DNA of 35,381 bases from a virus (IMGVR_UViG_3300037069_002169:1-35381), one strand, 5' to 3'; numbered from the stretch's first letter, positions 2,615 through 35,381 are shown. Program-made: numbers and translations. The notes: generated from the sequence alone by a model not told the origin.

Positions 2615-3062
2615 GTACCAGAAACCGCACAAGGAAAATGAGTTGCGGAACGTGCATAAAATCCGAGACGATCGTAAGCACATCAAGAACCCGAAATCAT
2701 CCGATTACGAATATGTGATTGAAGAGGTCGAGATGCTTACTCGGCAAGGATTGGTAACGATTACTCAGTTTGCGGCCTGGAAGGGTGTACATCGGACATC
2801 CATAACGACTGGCTATTCTGAGGGCAAGTTCAAAGACGTATATCAGAAGATGCTGGCTATTTGTGAGGCATATGGAGAGCGTAGGCTATACGAAGCGGAG
2901 CGCAATGCCGCAAATATCATCTTTGCTATGAAGAACAGTTACGGCTGGGTTGATGAAACCAAGCATGATATATCTGGTAGCCTCGATACGCCACTCTCGG
3001 ACGAAGCCAAGGCAGCACTCAACAAAGCGCTGAATGGTGGCGGCGATGGCAATCCGGATTGA
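2532..3062 (+). CDS. terS: terminase small subunit
   Basis: A 176-residue protein immediately before the large terminase. It begins MAGNQNSGNKP, a start typical of many small terminase subunits, and has a helical DNA-binding N half (VTITQFAAWKGVHRTSIT looks like a helix-turn-helix near residues 75-92). It continues with a helical oligomerisation region and a KNSYGWVDETKH ending common to the family. The role is recognition of the packaging site and regulation of TerL. GGAAAGG lies upstream. The stop lies inside the start region of the next gene, implying coupling. Confidence 0.85.
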   Translation: MAGNQNSGNKPIWATPQALLKDFVAFLEYQKPHKENELRNVHKIRDDRKHIKNPKSSDYEYVIEEVEMLTRQGLVTITQFAAWKGVHRTSITTGYSEGKFKDVYQKMLAICEAYGERRLYEAERNAANIIFAMKNSYGWVDETKHDISGSLDTPLSDEAKAALNKALNGGGDGNPD

Positions 3063-4608
3063 TCAGTGGATATCTGAATTCGGTGAACTCCAGGCGAAGA
3101 AAATGGCTAGGGAGTATTTTCGCGATCCGGCGAACCTTGAAGAGTTTGCAATGCTCTTCCCGGCGTATGTGCCAACGCACCTAGCAGACTTCCACGGTGA
3201 TCTATACGACTACTACGAGGCAGATGGCAACTTTGCAGGTGCCGCGCCTCGTGGTTTTAGTAAGTCGACTGTTACCGATACCATCTACCTTGCTCACAGG
3301 GCACTATATGCCCGCTCTCACTTCGTACTATTGGTATCAGATACCTTCACACAGGCTGCAGGCTTGATTGATGGTTTGAAATCAGAGTTAGAGAGCAACG
3401 AACAGATGCTGTGGCTGTTTGGCGATGTACGCGGCAAGATATGGTCGAGTGACGGGCTTATCATTCACGGCTGGGCTGACAATGGAAAGCGTGAGCCGGT
3501 TAAGATCCTGCCGCGCGGTGCTGGCATGAAAGTTCGTGGTTTGCGCTTCAAACAATACCGCCCCGATCTTGTGATTCTTGATGACCTCGAAAACGATGAG
3601 GCTGTAGAATCTCCTGAGCGCCGGGAGAAGCTATATAACTGGTTCAAACGTGCATTGCTACCGGCACTTGCTAAGGACATTAGCAAGATTATCGCTATTG
3701 GAACGCTCTTGCACCGGGAGTCGCTGTTGTCGCAGATGGTCAATGGTCAAGGTATCTTTGGTGGCTGGAACCGGCGTACCTGGCGAGGCATCAAAGAAGA
3801 CGGTACGAGCCTATGGCCTGAGCGTTTCGATGTTGAGTATCTAACCGGCATGCGTGACGACCCGACTCATCCAATGTATATGGGCCCGCTTGAGTTCAGC
3901 CAGGAAATCCAGAATAACCCGATTAGCGAAAAAGACCAGATCATCAAGCCTGAATGGACTCAGAGCCGTTATATCCTCAATAACCACCTTGTCGAATGGG
4001 CTCGTAAGATGCGCATCACCGATCCTGAAGCAGCGCTACGCTCATGGATGAAAACCCACTTCAAAAAGGTAATTGGCCACATCGACCCGGCAATCTCTGA
4101 GAGTGAAAAAGCTGACTGGTGGGCAATGGTGACGATCGGCATTACCAACAAGTGCCCTATCTGCCCGGGGGAACCGGCAGGCCACATTGTCATACTCGAT
4201 GTGATACGTTTCCGCGAGAGTGACCCCGAAGTGCAGGCGCAGGAAATCGGTGATCAGTTCTTGCTGTGGAAACAGGACAAAATTAAGATTGAGGCTGTTG
4301 CGTATCAGGCAGGACTCTACCAAATTACCAAGAGAATTGCTCAAAAGCGCGGTTTGCACATCCCAGTATGGAAGTGGAAGCCTGATCGCTCAAAGCGTCG
4401 CCGGGCAATCCTGCAAAGTGGCTCATGGGCTGGTGGTACAGTTCACATACGCATGGACATGCCACATGCAGCCGAGTTCATCGAAGAAGTGGTGCAATTC
4501 CCGCAAGGTGCGCATGATGACATGTTTGATGCCTACTTGGGTGCCGCGGAAGAAACTGTGTTGACTACCAAGCAGCGAGCATTCAGAGATAAACCACGAG
4601 GAATGTAG
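3034..4608 (+). CDS. terL: terminase large subunit (packaging ATPase/nuclease)
   Basis: A 524-residue TerL. The ATPase motifs are a Walker A-like APRGFSKST (about 71-79) and Walker B PDLVILDDLE (about 177-186). A coupling-motif-like IGTLLH follows. The C-terminal nuclease half has an acidic GHIDPAIS stretch and a late HDDMFDA motif, typical of the RNase H-like nuclease. It pumps DNA into the prohead and cuts concatemers. ATG 3034 and ATG 3046 are both possible. The second has GGTGG just upstream and gives 520 residues, and neither has a strong ribosome site. Packaging type (cos or headful) cannot be told. Confidence 0.95.
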   Translation: MVAAMAIRIDQWISEFGELQAKKMAREYFRDPANLEEFAMLFPAYVPTHLADFHGDLYDYYEADGNFAGAAPRGFSKSTVTDTIYLAHRALYARSHFVLLVSDTFTQAAGLIDGLKSELESNEQMLWLFGDVRGKIWSSDGLIIHGWADNGKREPVKILPRGAGMKVRGLRFKQYRPDLVILDDLENDEAVESPERREKLYNWFKRALLPALAKDISKIIAIGTLLHRESLLSQMVNGQGIFGGWNRRTWRGIKEDGTSLWPERFDVEYLTGMRDDPTHPMYMGPLEFSQEIQNNPISEKDQIIKPEWTQSRYILNNHLVEWARKMRITDPEAALRSWMKTHFKKVIGHIDPAISESEKADWWAMVTIGITNKCPICPGEPAGHIVILDVIRFRESDPEVQAQEIGDQFLLWKQDKIKIEAVAYQAGLYQITKRIAQKRGLHIPVWKWKPDRSKRRRAILQSGSWAGGTVHIRMDMPHAAEFIEEVVQFPQGAHDDMFDAYLGAAEETVLTTKQRAFRDKPRGM

Positions 4609-23580: not shown

Positions 23581-24729
23581 ATGAGCGAATTACTATGCGA
23601 TCTATCTTGGGGACGACCCGGCGGCAAAGCAATCAAGGCGGCTGGATATAGTGGCGTTCTTCGTTACCTATCTCACGATACTACCGGCAAGAACCTAAGC
23701 GCCTCTGAGCGTGATGATTACTTTGCGAATGGTCTATCTATCCGCCTTGTTTATGAAAATGGTTCACAAGCGGCACTTGGTGGCCACGCACAAGGATTTA
23801 GTGACGGCCAGAACGCGCTTCAGCTTGCTCAAGCCCTTGGACTGCCAAAAAGCTACGGAATATACTATGCCGTCGATTTCGATGCCACACCTGTTCAGCA
23901 AACAGCCATAGACGAATATGGCAATGGCTTCCGAGAAGGCTTGGCTGGATATTATGATTGTGCAGAATACGCTGGCTACTGGGTAGTGAGCCGATCGATC
24001 GCTAACGGTACGACCAAAAAGAGTTGGCAAACACTCGCATGGAGTGGCGGCAATGTCGTAAATGGCGTGAATATCTACCAAAACGGAAAATCTGATTTTG
24101 GTGGTGCCGTAGATGTAGACGAATTACGCAATGATGATGGTTGGAACTGGACGGCCGTAAGTGGCGACGCGCCTACTTCTGCCCCTGCTCCCGTTCAACA
24201 TGTCAGCGCCCCAGCTCCTGTTGCTGTTTCTGGCCCAGGTGGTTCATACACCGTACAGTCGGGCGATACTCTTTCAGGCATAGGAGCAAAGACCGGAACT
24301 GACTGGCGAGCAATTGCGCAGCTTAACAACATAAGCTCACCATTCACTATCTATCCGAATGAGGTACTTCATTTGCCTGGCGGCCAAGCGGCACCTCAAG
24401 CAGCTCCTGCGGGGGCAACGGTACGATATACCGTTCAGTCTGGTGATACGCTCTCAGCTATTGGCGCAAAATTTGGCGTAAGCTATCTGGAAATTGCACG
24501 AATCAATGGCATCGCCGATCCTAACAAGATCAATGCCGGTCAGGTATTAGTGATCAGCGGCGGTAACACGCAGCCGGCATCCGGACGCGCAACCTACACG
24601 GTCGTTAGTGGTGACACACTTTCAGGCATTGGCGCAAAAGAGGGTGTCGACTGGCGCAACATTGCTTCACTGAATAATATTGCAGCACCATTCGTAATCT
24701 TCCCAGGGCAGGAATTGAAATTGTCATGA
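23581..24729 (+). CDS. endolysin: DUF1906-type glycoside hydrolase-like domain plus three LysM
   Basis: A 382-residue protein behind a strong AAGGAGG site. Residues 1-190 form a DUF1906 (Rv2525c-like) TIM-barrel domain: the strand start LLCDLSWGRPGGKAIKAAG, VLRYLSHD, GIYYAVDFDAT and the AYWVVSRS-like region read as GYWVVSRSIA. Three LysM repeats follow (about 219-262, 281-325, 337-381), each opening YTV-x-SGDTLS-x-IGAK, binding N-acetylglucosamine. The catalytic bond is not certain for this family. No signal peptide, so a holin is needed. LysM 1 and 3 are closer to each other than to LysM 2. Confidence 0.92.
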   Translation: MSELLCDLSWGRPGGKAIKAAGYSGVLRYLSHDTTGKNLSASERDDYFANGLSIRLVYENGSQAALGGHAQGFSDGQNALQLAQALGLPKSYGIYYAVDFDATPVQQTAIDEYGNGFREGLAGYYDCAEYAGYWVVSRSIANGTTKKSWQTLAWSGGNVVNGVNIYQNGKSDFGGAVDVDELRNDDGWNWTAVSGDAPTSAPAPVQHVSAPAPVAVSGPGGSYTVQSGDTLSGIGAKTGTDWRAIAQLNNISSPFTIYPNEVLHLPGGQAAPQAAPAGATVRYTVQSGDTLSAIGAKFGVSYLEIARINGIADPNKINAGQVLVISGGNTQPASGRATYTVVSGDTLSGIGAKEGVDWRNIASLNNIAAPFVIFPGQELKLS

Positions 24730-27640: not shown

Positions 27641-28528
27641 ATGACAATCACAGAGGCATTCAACCTCTATCGATTAGACTGCATCGTGTTCCGAAACCAA
27701 TCTCCAAAGACAGAAGAAAACCATTCTTATGCGCTCAAGTGGCTCATAGAATTTGCCGGTGATATCCAGATCGAGGATTTAAGCTTCGATCAGGTTCGCA
27801 ACTGGAAACTCTGGCTGGATAAAGGCACTAATGGCAAACCGCGTAGTGCCTCAACGGTACGGGAATATATAATCAGGCTTCGAGTGGTTCTTCGTCATGC
27901 CCAAAAACGCGGTTATGGTGTGCTCGATTTTGAGCTGATACCGATCCCTAAGCGTACAGAGAAGATACCGGAGTTCTTGAGCAAGCAACAGGTTGCCGAG
28001 CTGATATTTGAGGTAGGAAAGCCAGCCAGAGGCTACCCAAGGATCAATCGTTCGCGCAATGTAGCAATCATCAGTTTGCTCTATGCGTCTGGCATTCGTG
28101 CGGCGGAGCTATGCCGTCTTAACCGATCGGATATTCGCCCGGATGGTAGTTTCACAGTGTTTGGCAAAGGCAGTAAATACCGTCTGTGCTTTATTGATGA
28201 GCGCACCCGTATGTTTCTTGAGGATTATCTTATGATGCGCACCGATAGCAACCCTGCGCTTTTTACGGCCAATCAGAATGGCCTCCGTCTTTCAAAGCAT
28301 ACGCTGCAACGCATTTTTGAGTATGCCAGGGGTAGGGTAGATTTTGAGGTATTGGTGCATGCCCATATGCTGCGGCACTCGTTCGCCACTGATCTACTGC
28401 GAAATAATACCAATATGCGCTACGTTCAAGTGATGCTAGGCCATAGCAGTTTGACTACGACCCAGATGTATACCCACGTTGTCGACGAGGATCTCCATAG
28501 GGTCTATGCGACCAATCATACCTATTAA
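27641..28528 (+). CDS. int: tyrosine recombinase (integrase/XerC-D type)
   Basis: A 295-residue protein, AGGAAAG 10 bases before ATG. An N-terminal SAM-like core-binding domain (about 1-100) is followed by the catalytic domain, with Arg153 (ASGIRAAELC), Lys176 (FGKGSKY), His242-x-x-Arg245 (HMLRHSFATD), His268 (LGHSS) and nucleophile Tyr277. It cuts and joins DNA through a 3'-phosphotyrosine. Length and sequence are XerC/D-like without an arm-binding domain. It sits next to a tRNA gene, suiting phage integration. It is also the only recombinase seen that could drive the fibre inversion at 19839-20714. Confidence 0.93.
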   Translation: MTITEAFNLYRLDCIVFRNQSPKTEENHSYALKWLIEFAGDIQIEDLSFDQVRNWKLWLDKGTNGKPRSASTVREYIIRLRVVLRHAQKRGYGVLDFELIPIPKRTEKIPEFLSKQQVAELIFEVGKPARGYPRINRSRNVAIISLLYASGIRAAELCRLNRSDIRPDGSFTVFGKGSKYRLCFIDERTRMFLEDYLMMRTDSNPALFTANQNGLRLSKHTLQRIFEYARGRVDFEVLVHAHMLRHSFATDLLRNNTNMRYVQVMLGHSSLTTTQMYTHVVDEDLHRVYATNHTY

Positions 28529-28564: not shown

Positions 28565-28654
28565 CAGGGTAAGTCGTTCATTAGAACAATCGAAACTTTA
28601 CAAGTTAGCTTCACAGAAAAACACGAATAGTGGCAATTTTGAAGCTAACATCGG

Positions 28655-28725
28655 TGCGCAGCGCTCTTAGGGCGCATCCTTGCCAAGGATGTGAAGCTCT
28701 CTAAGCGACAGAGATACATCCAGCA
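28655..28725 (+). other. tRNA-like element with Gly(GCC) anticodon arm
   Basis: CATCC-TTGCCAA-GGATG (28675-28691) is a perfect five-pair anticodon arm with the same seven-base loop as the true tRNA-Gly downstream. A GCGC/GCGC stem sits in the D-arm place (28661-28675), and CTCT/AGAG can form a T-arm-like hairpin. No acceptor stem pairs, so it is not a working tRNA by eye. It could be a decayed tRNA, an attachment-site remnant or a tRNA mimic. Confidence 0.5.
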
Positions 28726-28738
28726 GTTAAAAATTTAT

Positions 28739-28815
28739 GCGGGTCTAGCTCAGTTGTTTAGAGCGCCACCTTGCCAAGGTGGAGGCCAGGGGTTAGAGTC
28801 CCCTGACCCGCACCA
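28739..28815 (+). tRNA. tRNA-Gly (anticodon GCC), CCA encoded
   Basis: A complete cloverleaf: acceptor GCGGGTC/GACCCGC (7 pairs), D-stem GCTC/GAGC, anticodon stem CCACC/GGTGG with loop TTGCCAA, variable AGGCC, T-stem AGGGG/CCCCT with loop TTAGAGT, discriminator A and encoded CCA. It reads GGC and GGT, and GGC is the main Gly codon of the repeat protein at the window ends. Odd points: position 19 is T and position 56 is A in place of the near-universal G19-C56, and position 73 is A where bacterial tRNA-Gly usually has U. Confidence 0.95.
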
Positions 28816-29304: not shown

Positions 29305-30318
29305 ATGGCTAACAATTCGCTCCAGCTCTACATCCGCAGCGGAGCCGCGCAGAGCAGCATCGAGCAAACGCTGAAAGATCGTGCAGACGACTTCACGACC
29401 TCATTGCTGACTGTGATCAATGGTAACCCTGTGTTGCAAGAGTGTGATGCTCAGGAAGTGGTACGGACGGCCCTAAAAGCCGCCAGTATGCGCTTGCCGA
29501 TAGATCCCAACCTCGGGTTGGCTTACATAATTCCATATCAGAATACCAAGAAAATTCGCGAAGAATGGACAGACAGCAAAGGTGTCGTTCGTTATCGCGA
29601 CAAATTTATTAAGAAATACGAACCGCAATTGCAGATTGGCTGGAAAGGCTTTGTGCAGCTTGCGCTGCGCACTCGGCTCTACAAGACCATCAACGTTACC
29701 GATGTGCGTGAAGGTGAATATAACGGCCAGGATCGTCTGACTGGTGTCATTCACTTTGAGTGGATCGACGATAATGCAGAGCGCGAGAAGTTACCTATAT
29801 CTGGCTATGTTGCCTATTTCAGGCTGCACGATGGTTTCGAAAAGATCCTATACATGAGTTTTGATGAGCTCGAAGATCACGCTAAGAAATACAGCAAATC
29901 ATACCAGTACGGTAACGGTAAGTGGGTTGACGATAAGCCAAACATGTCTAAAAAAACAGTCGTTAAGCTGTTGATTAGCAAGTGGGGGCCACAGTCTACC
30001 GAAATCCAGAAGGCTCTACGCGCTGATCAGGCTGCAATGGGTGACGATGATACCTATAACTACGTCGACAACGATAAAAGCAAAGACACTACCGATCAAA
30101 CGCCTGCAACAGGTGACGAGCCAACCACTGGAACTGACGATGTCGCAGAAGGTGAAGTAGTAGATGCTCCGGCCGCTGATGATATCGATCAGACTCCAGT
30201 CGAAGTTCCTGCCACACCGCAGGAACCACAAAAATCAGTGAAAGAAAAGGCTGCAGCCTGGACTGCAAAGCATAAGGCTGAAGCAGCCGAAAAACGAGGT
30301 GATAGCAATGAGCAATAA
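29305..30318 (+). CDS. recT: RecT single-strand annealing protein
   Basis: A 337-residue RecT-family protein, AGGAAGG site. The core lies at about residues 25-235: VVRTALKAASMRLPIDPNLG, YIIPYQN, LQIGWKGFVQLALRTRLYK and KPNMSKKTVVKLLISKWG are typical RecT blocks. The C-terminal 100 residues are acidic, Thr/Pro-rich and probably disordered, ending in a basic helix. RecT anneals single strands left by a 5'-3' exonuclease. The next gene starts inside its last codons and encodes a nuclease, the expected partner. Confidence 0.94.
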   Translation: MANNSLQLYIRSGAAQSSIEQTLKDRADDFTTSLLTVINGNPVLQECDAQEVVRTALKAASMRLPIDPNLGLAYIIPYQNTKKIREEWTDSKGVVRYRDKFIKKYEPQLQIGWKGFVQLALRTRLYKTINVTDVREGEYNGQDRLTGVIHFEWIDDNAEREKLPISGYVAYFRLHDGFEKILYMSFDELEDHAKKYSKSYQYGNGKWVDDKPNMSKKTVVKLLISKWGPQSTEIQKALRADQAAMGDDDTYNYVDNDKSKDTTDQTPATGDEPTTGTDDVAEGEVVDAPAADDIDQTPVEVPATPQEPQKSVKEKAAAWTAKHKAEAAEKRGDSNEQ

Positions 30319-32320
30319 TCTTATCGACTATTGGTCCTACTCAAGTATGGCATCACTTCTCAGCAACCCAATGGCGTTCAAGAAGCAATACATTCTCAAG
30401 CAATATGACGATCTTACGAGTCCATCCGCACTGGTCGGTTCTGCCTGCCACAAGGCACTCGAAATGTTCTTTAAGGGATTAGACCAAGATGCTGCGATCT
30501 CCGAAGGTTTGAAGGTCATTAACGAGAAATCTGACATTGGCATCAATTATGGCAAGACCGGAACTCGCGCCGCTATTCTAGCGACTTACACCAAGGCAAT
30601 AAACTACGCTTTCGCAGAGCTTCCTACATTCCACGAGCTCCTTGGCGTGGAAGAAAGCATAACGATCGAAATCGATAGCATGACCGGCGGCACAATGGCT
30701 CTTCCCGCCAAAGCCAAGATGGATATTGTCGAGCGCAACAAACTTGGCGAACTCGAGATAACTGACTGGAAATTCGTAAAAAGTTACACCAATGCAGATG
30801 TCGATGATTTCAAGAAATGGCTACAAGGCATGTTTAACTACTACGTCATTAAGGCTAAGTACGGTGAGGCTCCGGCTCGTATTCGATACCGCGAGTGTAA
30901 GGTTACGGGCAATAAAGACAACACGCCACAGATGCAGGCATATACCTACGAGTTTAACAGCCCGGCTGATTTTGCCACCTTCGAGAAGCTATACAACGAA
31001 TGCACTACGCAGATCAGTTTGCCCGGCTATCAATTCCTACCGAACCCGAACGACATCTTTGATGGTCAAATAACCTTTGAGATATACCGCCAAGGCATCA
31101 TGGGTGTTGAAGCGCCAGTCGCCGTACCGCATAAGACTGAACAAGTGGCTTTTGCCGATAAACAGTTCGTGCCAAGTGCTGGTGATCGGGTAGAAAACAA
31201 AGATCTATCGATGGAAGAACGCATCCGTCTGAAGATGCAGGAGTTTGTCGGCGCTGTCGAAATGCAGGAGACTCACGTTGGCCCTAGCGTTACGCAGTAC
31301 ACCCTAAAAGTGTCTCGCGGTATCCCAATGAGCAAGATTGCTCGAATGGATAGAGATATCGCACTCGCAATTGAAGCCCGTAGCTTGCGTGTAGAGGCTC
31401 CAATACCTGGAACTGGGCTAGTTGGCATCGAAGTGCCTAGCGCCGTTCGAAAGACCGTTGAGCTGACTGATAACCATCTGCGCCCAGGTACGCTTCAGTT
31501 ACCTATCGGCGTAAACGTCTTTAACGAAGTCATCTACAAAGATCTTGGCGATATGCCGCACCTGCTCGTTGCCGGAGCGACTGGCGCAGGTAAGTCAGTG
31601 ATGCTGAATGTAATCATCCAGGCACTCACTAAGCAGCTTACACCTGATGCATTGCAATTGGTTCTCGTAGATCCAAAGCAGGTAGAGTTTGCGCCTTTTG
31701 AAAGTCTGCCGCACCTTGCGCTACCAGTTGTCTACGACAACAAAGGTGCCGCGAATGTACTGGCTGCAACCGTCGAAGAAATGGAGAAGCGCTACAAGAT
31801 GCTGCGCCGTCGTAATTGCCGGTCAATCCAAGAGTTCAACGCAAAGGGTAAACCAATGCCATACCGAGTGCTGATCCTGGACGAGTTTGCCGATCTGATG
31901 ATGACCGCCGAAAAGCAGCCTGTCGGAAATATCGACATCAAACAATTTAACGAGAACTTACTGTTTCACATTGCCAACGGTAATGGCAAGCTCACGCAAA
32001 AAGCGACCAAAGCAGCACTAGCAGATACGCTCGATGATGGCATCGCGCCTGCAGAGCAGTCAATCATACGTCTGGCTCAGAAGGCTCGAGCTGTTGGTAT
32101 TCACCTGATACTTGCGACTCAGCGACCAAGCGCAGATGTTGTTACCGGCCTAATTAAGGCAAACATTCCTACCAAGATTGCATTCATGACCACGAGCAAA
32201 GTGAATAGCCAGATCGTGATCGACCAGAGTGGAGCTGAAGAGCTCACCGGCAAAGGCGACATGCTATTCCTCGATCCAACTAAAGCAGGCTTAACACGGC
32301 TGCAAGGGCTGTACTGCTGA
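30308..32320 (+). CDS. PD-(D/E)XK nuclease fused to FtsK-type DNA translocase
   Basis: A 670-residue two-part protein, ATG 30308 behind GAGGTGA. Residues 1-265 are a RecB/Cas4-like nuclease: GSACHKALE with His48, Asp139 in KAKMDIVE, Asp153-x-Lys155 (ITDWKF), and Gln173 before NYY. Residues about 305-670 are an FtsK motor: the alpha-domain pattern HVGPSVTQY and APIPGTGLVGIEVPS, Walker A GATGAGKS (423-430), Walker B VLILDEFADL (521-530) and LATQRPSADVV. It ends where the beta domain ends (DMLFLDP...RLQGLYC), so the sequence-reading gamma domain and membrane anchor are absent. Probably a motor-driven exonuclease for RecT; this is inferred. Confidence 0.9.
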   Translation: MSNNLIDYWSYSSMASLLSNPMAFKKQYILKQYDDLTSPSALVGSACHKALEMFFKGLDQDAAISEGLKVINEKSDIGINYGKTGTRAAILATYTKAINYAFAELPTFHELLGVEESITIEIDSMTGGTMALPAKAKMDIVERNKLGELEITDWKFVKSYTNADVDDFKKWLQGMFNYYVIKAKYGEAPARIRYRECKVTGNKDNTPQMQAYTYEFNSPADFATFEKLYNECTTQISLPGYQFLPNPNDIFDGQITFEIYRQGIMGVEAPVAVPHKTEQVAFADKQFVPSAGDRVENKDLSMEERIRLKMQEFVGAVEMQETHVGPSVTQYTLKVSRGIPMSKIARMDRDIALAIEARSLRVEAPIPGTGLVGIEVPSAVRKTVELTDNHLRPGTLQLPIGVNVFNEVIYKDLGDMPHLLVAGATGAGKSVMLNVIIQALTKQLTPDALQLVLVDPKQVEFAPFESLPHLALPVVYDNKGAANVLAATVEEMEKRYKMLRRRNCRSIQEFNAKGKPMPYRVLILDEFADLMMTAEKQPVGNIDIKQFNENLLFHIANGNGKLTQKATKAALADTLDDGIAPAEQSIIRLAQKARAVGIHLILATQRPSADVVTGLIKANIPTKIAFMTTSKVNSQIVIDQSGAEELTGKGDMLFLDPTKAGLTRLQGLYC

Positions 32321-34043: not shown

Positions 34044-34263
34044 ACAAGAGCTGGGCTATGTGACGCGCCTCATGCCTACGCATAGCCAACGCAAGGCGCT
34101 CACACGGCATTTGGTGCATTTGAACAAGGAGATCGTTGATTGCGAAGAGCGCGGCGAGCCTACGCACGTTATGCGTCATACCTACGATTGCCTTGCTCAG
34201 ACACTCGAAATGCTGGACGAAATCAAAAAAATTAAGGTCGCAATGTATGGGGGTAAGTCATGA
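34024..34263 (+). CDS. small basic helical protein (79 aa)
   Basis: ATG 34024 with GGAAAG six bases upstream; the in-frame ATG 34018 lies too close to that site. It begins MARINYKQELGYVTRLMP and is helical and His/Arg-rich (ALTRHLVHLNKEIVDCEERG). Ends in an ATGA overlap. Unknown function. Confidence 0.65.
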   Translation: MARINYKQELGYVTRLMPTHSQRKALTRHLVHLNKEIVDCEERGEPTHVMRHTYDCLAQTLEMLDEIKKIKVAMYGGKS

Positions 34264-34472
34264 GCAAGCATGAAGTTTATAGCTCGGCATGGAATTACGA
34301 AGTGGTTCTTTACCGAGGCGACGAAATCATAGATACCGGAACTGTTCGAGAGATAGCAGAGCGCCGCGGTGTTCAAAAGCTAACTATAAGTTACTATCTC
34401 ACACCTGCAGGCCACCGTCGCGCCGATTCACGCAAGGATCAATCTAAGGCAATGCGGGCAGTAAAAATATGA
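34260..34472 (+). CDS. small helix-turn-helix-like protein (70 aa)
   Basis: A 70-residue basic protein: YEVVLYRGDEIIDTGTVREIA, then ERRGVQKLTISYYLTPAGHRR, which could be a helix-turn-helix of the type that reads T-x-x-E-I-A ... G-V ... T-I-x-x-Y. Small phage proteins of this shape are common next to early genes. Overlaps both neighbours by ATGA. Confidence 0.6.
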   Translation: MSKHEVYSSAWNYEVVLYRGDEIIDTGTVREIAERRGVQKLTISYYLTPAGHRRADSRKDQSKAMRAVKI

Positions 34473-35093: not shown

Positions 35094-35381
35094 ATGAAAA
35101 CACTTAAACTCACAAGCAAAGATTTCAAGAAGTCAGACAGTTATTGGTCAGATTACATTGGCAAAGAAAATCTGAGTGACTATGACGGCAACGTTGAGAT
35201 TGCAGAGTCCTTGGGCTATGTACGATTCGATTCCATTAACGTAAAGGGCTACTTATTGGCAGGCACTGGCTCGGGCATCGAAGCTGGCTCGGGCATCAAA
35301 GCTGGCGAGGGCATCAAAGCTGGCTGGGGCATCAAAGCTGGCGAGGGCATCAAAGCTGGCTGGGGCATCAAAGCTGGCCCC
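35094..35381 (+). CDS. N-terminal part of hexapeptide-repeat protein (runs off window)
   Basis: ATG 35094 with GGGAG upstream. The first 57 residues are a charged domain (KTLKLTSKDFKKSDSYWSDY, then AESLGYVRFDSINVKGYLL). Six complete 6-residue units G-[S/E/W]-G-I-[K/E]-A follow up to the window end. The last three bases read CCC (Pro), which breaks the repeat and is probably an assembly edge. Joined to bases 3-374, the frame gives N-domain, repeat stack and C-domain. Function unknown; likely a beta-solenoid. Confidence 0.75.
   Translation, partial: MKTLKLTSKDFKKSDSYWSDYIGKENLSDYDGNVEIAESLGYVRFDSINVKGYLLAGTGSGIEAGSGIKAGEGIKAGWGIKAGEGIKAGWGIKAGP
35265..35372 (+). repeat. 18-bp in-frame tandem repeat, right part (6 units)
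   Basis: Six 18-base units, codon 3 in order Ser, Ser, Glu, Trp, Glu, Trp. The strict Glu/Trp alternation continues into the array at the window start. A partial seventh unit ends the window. Confidence 0.95.

Follow-up and report, generated by a model that had tools for sequence, protein, structure and literature searches.

The virus record IMGVR_UViG_3300037069_002169, analyzed here over its full 35,381 nucleotides (35.4 kb) and called the window below, contains terminase, integrase, endolysin and recT genes, as judged from Pfam and phrog matches. Overlapping the end of recT by 11 nucleotides is a gene that joins a nuclease domain of the PD-(D/E)XK fold to the alpha and beta domains of an FtsK-type motor (Table 1). 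Its open reading frame (ORF) begins with ATG at 30308, ends with a stop codon at 32318-32320, has no internal stops and encodes a protein of 670 amino acids (aa). The original prediction for this locus recognized the fusion and its RecT partner and offered two roles, a motor-driven machine for the resection of DNA ends or a pump that degrades host DNA. Here, we analyze the domains, relatives and genomic neighborhoods of the fusion and conclude that it is probably the nuclease half of a phage recombination module composed of an annealase and an exonuclease, in which the exonuclease brings its own ring motor.

Table 1. Features of the fusion gene and of other genes in the window
Feature	Position	Strand	Evidence
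Nuclease-FtsK (alpha-beta) fusion gene product, 670 aa in a single frame	30308..32320	+	Translation, Pfam, phrog; architecture common to 48 distinct contigs
PD-(D/E)XK exonuclease-like domain, residues 1-246	30308..31045	+	PDDEXK_1, residues 9-246, 1.1e-11; model; fold matches; invariance
Predicted catalytic residues of the nuclease	H48 30449-30451, E115 30650-30652, D139 30722-30724, D153 30764-30766, K155 30770-30772, Q173 30824-30826	+	
Linker, residues 247-296, predicted disordered	31046..31195	+	Predicted local distance difference test score (pLDDT) <50 at residues 244-296
FtsK alpha domain, ~residues 297-385	31196..31462	+	Pfam FtsK_alpha, residues 301-378, 9.8e-19
FtsK beta (RecA-like motor) domain, ~residues 386-670	31463..32317	+	Pfam FtsK_SpoIIIE; match to FtsK structure with double-stranded DNA
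Walker A GATGAGKS, residues 423-430	31574..31597	+	Translation; G426, G428, K429, S430 in 48/48
Walker B VLILDE, residues 521-526	31868..31885	+	Translation; D525/E526 in 48/48
Variable insert in beta domain after Walker B, ~residues 534-581	31907..32050	+	Missing in some relatives (alignments)
Conserved R594 (putative arginine finger) to Q605 (sensor-1), HerA/FtsK clade	32087..32122	+	Each in 48/48
recT, single-strand annealing protein, 337 aa	29305..30318	+	Pfam RecT 7.3e-37; phrog_148 1.3e-61; TIGR00616 5.6e-45
Tyrosine integrase	27641..28528	+	Pfam Phage_integrase 1.3e-29
tRNA-Gly(GCC), adjoining the integrase, possible attachment region	28739..28815	+	At most 95% identity to Patescibacteria tRNA-Gly
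Terminase	3034-4608		Separate from the fusion gene

A search for the same two-domain order, which the original prediction had suggested, found it in 48 distinct contigs, of which one belongs to a bacterial metagenome-assembled genome (MAG) and the rest are viral (the window and 46 others), and once more in a prophage of a second MAG. The number 48 is a lower bound, the profile search having returned the best 80 of 379 relatives; a first scan of viral contigs had yielded one full-length relative, with 58% identity. In two further contigs, which are terminally redundant with end overlaps of 99 and 127 nucleotides, the fusion is interrupted only because the contig ends fall within it. Every phage copy found consists of the nuclease fused to the FtsK motor, and no second copy of the nuclease was found in the regions around the fusions among the best 80 relatives. 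In the collections of isolated phages (50,697 records, three queries) and plasmids (72,556 records, one query), no match covered 80% of the fusion, and the nuclease alone had no match among the isolated phages at E<0.01. One phage protein that seemed to reach into the nuclease, from MT839394, proved to be an ordinary membrane FtsK of 1,046 aa.

The fused proteins of the 48 contigs span 638-741 aa, comprise the same two domains and share a median pairwise identity of 40%, with a minimum of 30%. All of them are identical at H48, E115, D139, D153 and K155 of the nuclease (Q173 is present in 46), at the glycines, lysine and serine of Walker A and the DE pair of Walker B listed in Table 1, and at R594, Q605, K617 and N619. 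Because both enzymatic sites are invariant at a median identity of only 40%, the nuclease and motor activities both appear to be under selection within one chain.

A sequence search of the PDB with the nuclease profile gave zero matches, so that comparison of folds was needed. Prediction of the monomer structure, proposed as a check at the outset, succeeded for the nuclease modeled alone from 22 homologs (pLDDT 91; predicted template modeling score, pTM, 0.87) and gave a full-length model of moderate quality (pLDDT 72.7, pTM 0.47). The closest solved fold to the nuclease model is the AdnA nuclease (Z 17.5, 231 residues aligned, root-mean-square deviation (rmsd) 3.6), followed by a putative exonuclease of E. 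rectale (Z 16.0), the Argonaute-associated, Cas4-like ACE1 (15.3) and RecE (14.7), and, at lower scores, Dna2 (13.6), AddB (13.2), lambda Exo (9.4) and RecB (8.5), with Cas4 and MGME1 also among the matches. The folds nearest to the model are thus mostly those of end-processing enzymes. Residues invariant in the 22 homologs include H48, E115, K135, D139, D153, K155 and Q173, and the five motif residues named by the original prediction (His48, Asp139, Asp153, Lys155 and Gln173) are real. The catalytic residue set and the modeled fold are those of the RecB/AdnA/RecE-like PD-(D/E)XK group, from which an exonuclease role is predicted.

The motor half, with its alpha and beta domains and intact Walker A and B motifs, has the predicted make-up of an FtsK/SpoIIIE motor, and the description of a complete alpha-beta ATPase given in the original prediction holds on Pfam, structural and conservation grounds. 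The Pfam FtsK_SpoIIIE match covers residues 388-538 and a second stretch (2.8e-42), and the motor model aligns to the motor of Pseudomonas aeruginosa FtsK on double-stranded DNA (6t8b_D) with an rmsd of 2.9 over 402 columns and a TM-score on the target (TMt) of 0.72. An arginine finger and a sensor-1 residue, putatively R594 and Q605 here, form a signature described for the HerA/FtsK clade (PMC10853773). In a tree of 83 motors, those of the fusions form one clade (Shimodaira-Hasegawa-like approximate likelihood ratio test 100), distinct from the chromosomal FtsK of Patescibacteria as well as from the remaining cellular and phage FtsK, with long branches limiting its deeper placement. Many viral FtsK proteins are about 400-500 aa long and have no nuclease (L202-L239, for example L203, L206 and L213; mycobacteriophage loci L146 and L147), and those of the Omegavirus mycobacteriophages lie near Ku-like genes.

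Neither a membrane anchor nor a gamma domain is present, in agreement with the original prediction. The nuclease domain occupies the place of the N-terminal membrane anchor of cellular FtsK/SpoIIIE, and the fusion contains no transmembrane segment, its highest 19-residue hydropathy (1.59) falling at the P-loop region. At the other end, the protein stops a few residues past the last strand of the beta domain, where the gamma domain would start, and a Pfam scan found no FtsK_gamma (PF09397), the domain that reads FtsK-orienting polar sequences (KOPS) or SpoIIIE recognition sequences (SRS). The fused proteins among the best 80 of 379 relatives likewise have tails of 0-7 residues past the motor end and no gamma domain, one of them being cut by the contig end. 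A separate KOPS-reading gamma protein elsewhere in the phage was sought in 27 phage records searched whole, and none was found; the same search matched in 8 of 14 control genomes.

RecT genes usually adjoin exonuclease genes (PMC8093625), and a survey of the neighbors of single-strand annealing proteins in Firmicutes describes phage recT mostly beside stand-alone genes, YqaJ, DUF3799 and others, without mention of FtsK (PMC8093625). The RecT partner of the fusion, noted in the original prediction, recurs throughout the family: a RecT-superfamily gene lies upstream of the fusion in 47 of the 48 contigs, and an annealase is also present in the prophage of the second MAG. The two genes overlap or are separated by at most 60 nucleotides in 27 contigs and lie within 1 kb of each other in 43; in the sole contig without an upstream annealase, which is truncated, the fusion begins 990 bp from the contig end. 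At least four annealase families alternate in this position (phrog_148, phrog_561/4171, phrog_2449 and Bet/phrog_2780-like). Every member scanned was also recognized by Pfam RecT, with two from the phrog_561/4171 group falling slightly below the curated cut-off. This alternation implies that the nuclease-motor kept an annealase as its neighbor through repeated replacement of that neighbor. A linkage that survives exchange of the partner is the strongest functional evidence for the predicted role in recombination.

The carriers of the fusion look like phages of the ultra-small Patescibacteria, and temperate ones where checked. In the window, a temperate context is indicated by the predicted integrase. 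The adjacent tRNA-Gly matches Patescibacteria tRNA-Gly at 95% identity at best, and at 92, 90 and 89% in others. In just three other genomes, the comparison gave 75% over the full tRNA, 22 bases only, and no match. The best Patescibacteria match is in genome G353, from a class without a nuclease match, and the class of the next-best genome (G156) yielded the prophage of MAG L244. Comparison of the terminase gave only weak matches, in one class of Patescibacteria, and did not help to place the host. Our sampling of Patescibacteria was centered on the genome of locus L049, a Candidatus Nomurabacteria. On a 187-kb contig of MAG L244, an annealase and the fusion lie between phage genes (DUF859, amidase) and the chromosomal genes for SecA, an M16 peptidase and a Mur ligase, so that this copy is, from its gene content, clearly a prophage in a Patescibacteria chromosome. 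The 6.4-kb contig of MAG L118 carries iscS-iscU followed by recT and the fusion.

The nuclease also occurs without a motor. Nine genomes, all from one class of Patescibacteria, encode stand-alone versions of about 275-299 aa, which in alignments stop where the linker of the fusion starts; no FtsK gene is present among the ORFs listed around them. Most occupy a conserved chromosomal neighborhood with a sigma factor, a gene resembling 3'-5' exonucleases, a DsbA-like gene and, in the longer stretches covered, also hisS, these names having been assigned by reading the sequences. At L119, L120, L121 and L091-L093, the nuclease lies near an rpoD-like sigma factor gene, dnaG, hisS and the 3'-5' exonuclease-like and DsbA-like genes. 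These nucleases make up a chromosomal PD-(D/E)XK family as yet without a name, and the one member that was scanned against NCBIfam gave no match. They are not decayed fusions. They form one clade (100/100), which is nested among the phage copies under midpoint rooting only. Either a host nuclease was joined to a motor in a phage, or a host retained a phage nuclease without one; midpoint rooting of these sequences favors the second.

Several other features of the window bear on the phage itself. A degenerate second tRNA-Gly-like stretch, catccTTGCCAAggatg, at about 28650-28720, lies beside the integrase and directly upstream of the intact tRNA-Gly, and is possibly related to an attachment site. 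The endolysin (23581-24729) combines an Rv2525c-like glycoside-hydrolase domain with three LysM repeats, and the phage encodes a GroES/Cpn10 co-chaperonin (374-652; Pfam 6.7e-14). A 70-aa protein (34260-34472) matches phrog_803, 'host nuclease inhibitor' (2.1e-10), and may be a Gam-like companion of the recT-nuclease module. An ORF with many GIKAG(E/W)G repeats leaves the window at both ends (35094-35381 and 3-374), which suggests a complete, circularly permuted genome whose record was cut within the repeat gene; no exact overlap between the window ends was found.

We consider it likely that the fusion and its partner form a motorized counterpart of RecET/Red, in which a hexameric pump for double-stranded DNA feeds ends to the nuclease and yields single strands for RecT. 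The alpha-beta parts would assemble as a hexamer around double-stranded DNA, as in known FtsK families. Because there is no gamma domain or sequence-reading loader, loading would probably take place at DNA ends rather than at sequence motifs. ATP hydrolysis would then pull DNA through the ring toward its N-terminal face, where the tethered nuclease domains, placed like NurA on HerA, would degrade one strand; RecT would coat the exposed strand for annealing, leading to repair or recombination of the phage genome during replication. In HerA-NurA, NurA docks on the N-terminal HAS-barrel face of HerA, which is also the putative exit for DNA, and translocation leaves a 3' tail (PMC9960219). The nuclease of the fusion is likewise N-terminal to the motor and, by analogy, the polarity may be the same. 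With moderate confidence, we extend this reading to a new mode of recombination: in phages of Patescibacteria, a resection machine made of a single polypeptide, a hexameric ring motor with up to six exonuclease domains that would feed single-stranded DNA to RecT, may stand in for RecE/lambda Exo as the fixed component, beside annealases that can be exchanged.

Some considerations weigh against this scheme. The full-length model, with its pTM of 0.47 and disordered linker, leaves the arrangement of the domains unfixed, and both hexamer formation and where the nuclease would sit with respect to the ring are inferred. Nuclease activity, ATPase activity, translocation and RecT binding are predictions for every member of the family. 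Since RecE and lambda Exo resect without a motor, it is unexplained why the fusion would need one, and the stand-alone homologs of Patescibacteria show, as far as their sequences tell, that the nuclease family can do without it. Furthermore, the closest published nuclease-FtsK fusions, DndH, are defense proteins (PMC10853773), so that such a union alone does not point to recombination.

The same precedent is the starting point for a different role, that of a weapon which draws in the host chromosome, or a rival phage or plasmid, and degrades it in the manner of DndH/SspH or the HerA/FtsK 'capture' systems. DndH joins a restriction endonuclease to HerA/FtsK (PMC10853773), and the best PADLOC matches of the motor are SspH (6.4e-52) and other FtsK/HerA defense components, but these matches are confined to the motor, as they would be for any FtsK. 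The fusion contains neither a gamma domain nor any recognized DNA-recognition domain, its carriers look temperate where checked (the window integrase and the MAG prophage), and it accompanies RecT-type proteins almost without exception, a linkage that the degradation of host DNA put forward in the original prediction explains poorly. We found no positive evidence for such a pump and regard a weapon as unlikely. Motor-driven end resection, the other role proposed there, appears much better supported, both by the linkage to at least four kinds of annealase and by a modeled nuclease fold closest to those of end-resecting enzymes (AdnA, RecE, Dna2 and AddB).

It is similarly improbable that the motor serves to transport or separate phage or prophage DNA as it replicates, or to aid packaging, with the nuclease trimming ends or branched intermediates. 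Nuclease-free FtsK alpha-beta proteins do occur in other phages, including the Omegavirus mycobacteriophages and many viral contigs, but the motors of the fusions are a clade of their own, each copy found is fused to the nuclease, and the gene lies beside an annealase rather than packaging genes, the window terminase being separate. We also give little credence to a motor acting after resection, which would strip proteins, drive branch migration or load RecT while the nuclease resects unaided like RecE or lambda Exo. The independence of RecE-like enzymes from any motor, the long flexible linker in the model and the stand-alone homologs in Patescibacteria chromosomes fit this idea, but the constant fusion in phages suggests joint action on the same DNA end. 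Finally, the joining of two adjacent genes by a frameshift or misassembly, which the original prediction had named as its possible undoing, is almost certainly not the explanation and is ruled out by relatives that carry the same single gene: independent copies come from many samples, with 48 distinct contigs and two MAGs represented. The nine stand-alone nuclease genes lie in chromosomes, with no FtsK among the ORFs listed nearby.

Compared with known systems, the motorized module probably works, by analogy, like HerA-NurA or AdnAB but is a member of neither. HerA-NurA of archaea and Deinococcus shares a hexameric HerA/FtsK-superfamily pump for double-stranded DNA with a nuclease at its N-terminal face that resects ends for recombination (PMC9960219). 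It differs in being two separate proteins, with a HAS barrel on HerA and no phage annealase at its side, whereas the fusion unites FtsK_alpha and a PD-(D/E)XK nuclease in one polypeptide. NurA is not known as a PD-(D/E)XK enzyme. AdnAB, AddAB and RecBCD covalently couple a nuclease of similar fold (Z 17.5 for AdnA, 13.2 for AddB, 8.5 for RecB) to a DNA motor for the resection of ends, but their motors are unwinding superfamily 1 (SF1) helicases with the nuclease C-terminal, and that of the fusion is a translocase of hexameric type on double-stranded DNA with the nuclease N-terminal. RecET and lambda Red, including systems with YqaJ and DUF3799 partners, likewise place a RecT-superfamily annealase beside an exonuclease of the PD-(D/E)XK fold, but the known exonucleases are stand-alone and motor-free. 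Omegavirus mycobacteriophages have a phage-borne FtsK motor without a membrane anchor that, unlike the fusion, is about 440 aa long, has no nuclease domain and lies near a Ku-like gene instead of RecT. DndH/SspH and the HerA/FtsK capture systems combine a nuclease and a HerA/FtsK domain in one polypeptide (PMC10853773), but DndH/SspH are multidomain defense proteins of about 1,700 aa with methylase-like parts, a target recognition domain (TRD) and helicase remnants, the nuclease is of the endonuclease type, and there is no annealase; the two-domain proteins of 638-741 aa do not have this large architecture.

The original prediction knew of no described example, and this stands in part. Nuclease-HerA/FtsK fusions are described in the DndH and capture systems (PMC10853773) and a two-protein resector in HerA-NurA (PMC9960219). 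No description was found, in the open-access papers searched, of an FtsK alpha-beta motor fused to an exonuclease of the RecB/AdnA type that partners a phage annealase. A nuclease physically joined to FtsK thus has precedents, and what is new, as far as the papers and databases searched show, is the union of an FtsK alpha-beta motor with such an exonuclease as the constant companion of phage annealases.

Phage annealase-exonuclease pairs such as lambda Red and RecET underlie recombineering, and to our knowledge no such pair is known to have a motor of its own. If our reading is correct, a motor-exonuclease that serves several annealase families would be a different way of resecting DNA ends in phages and would link the world of FtsK/HerA pumps to phage recombination. 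The fusion offers a small, one-gene system for the study of pump-driven resection, and might also serve as a recombination tool in Patescibacteria, a group with few genetic tools.

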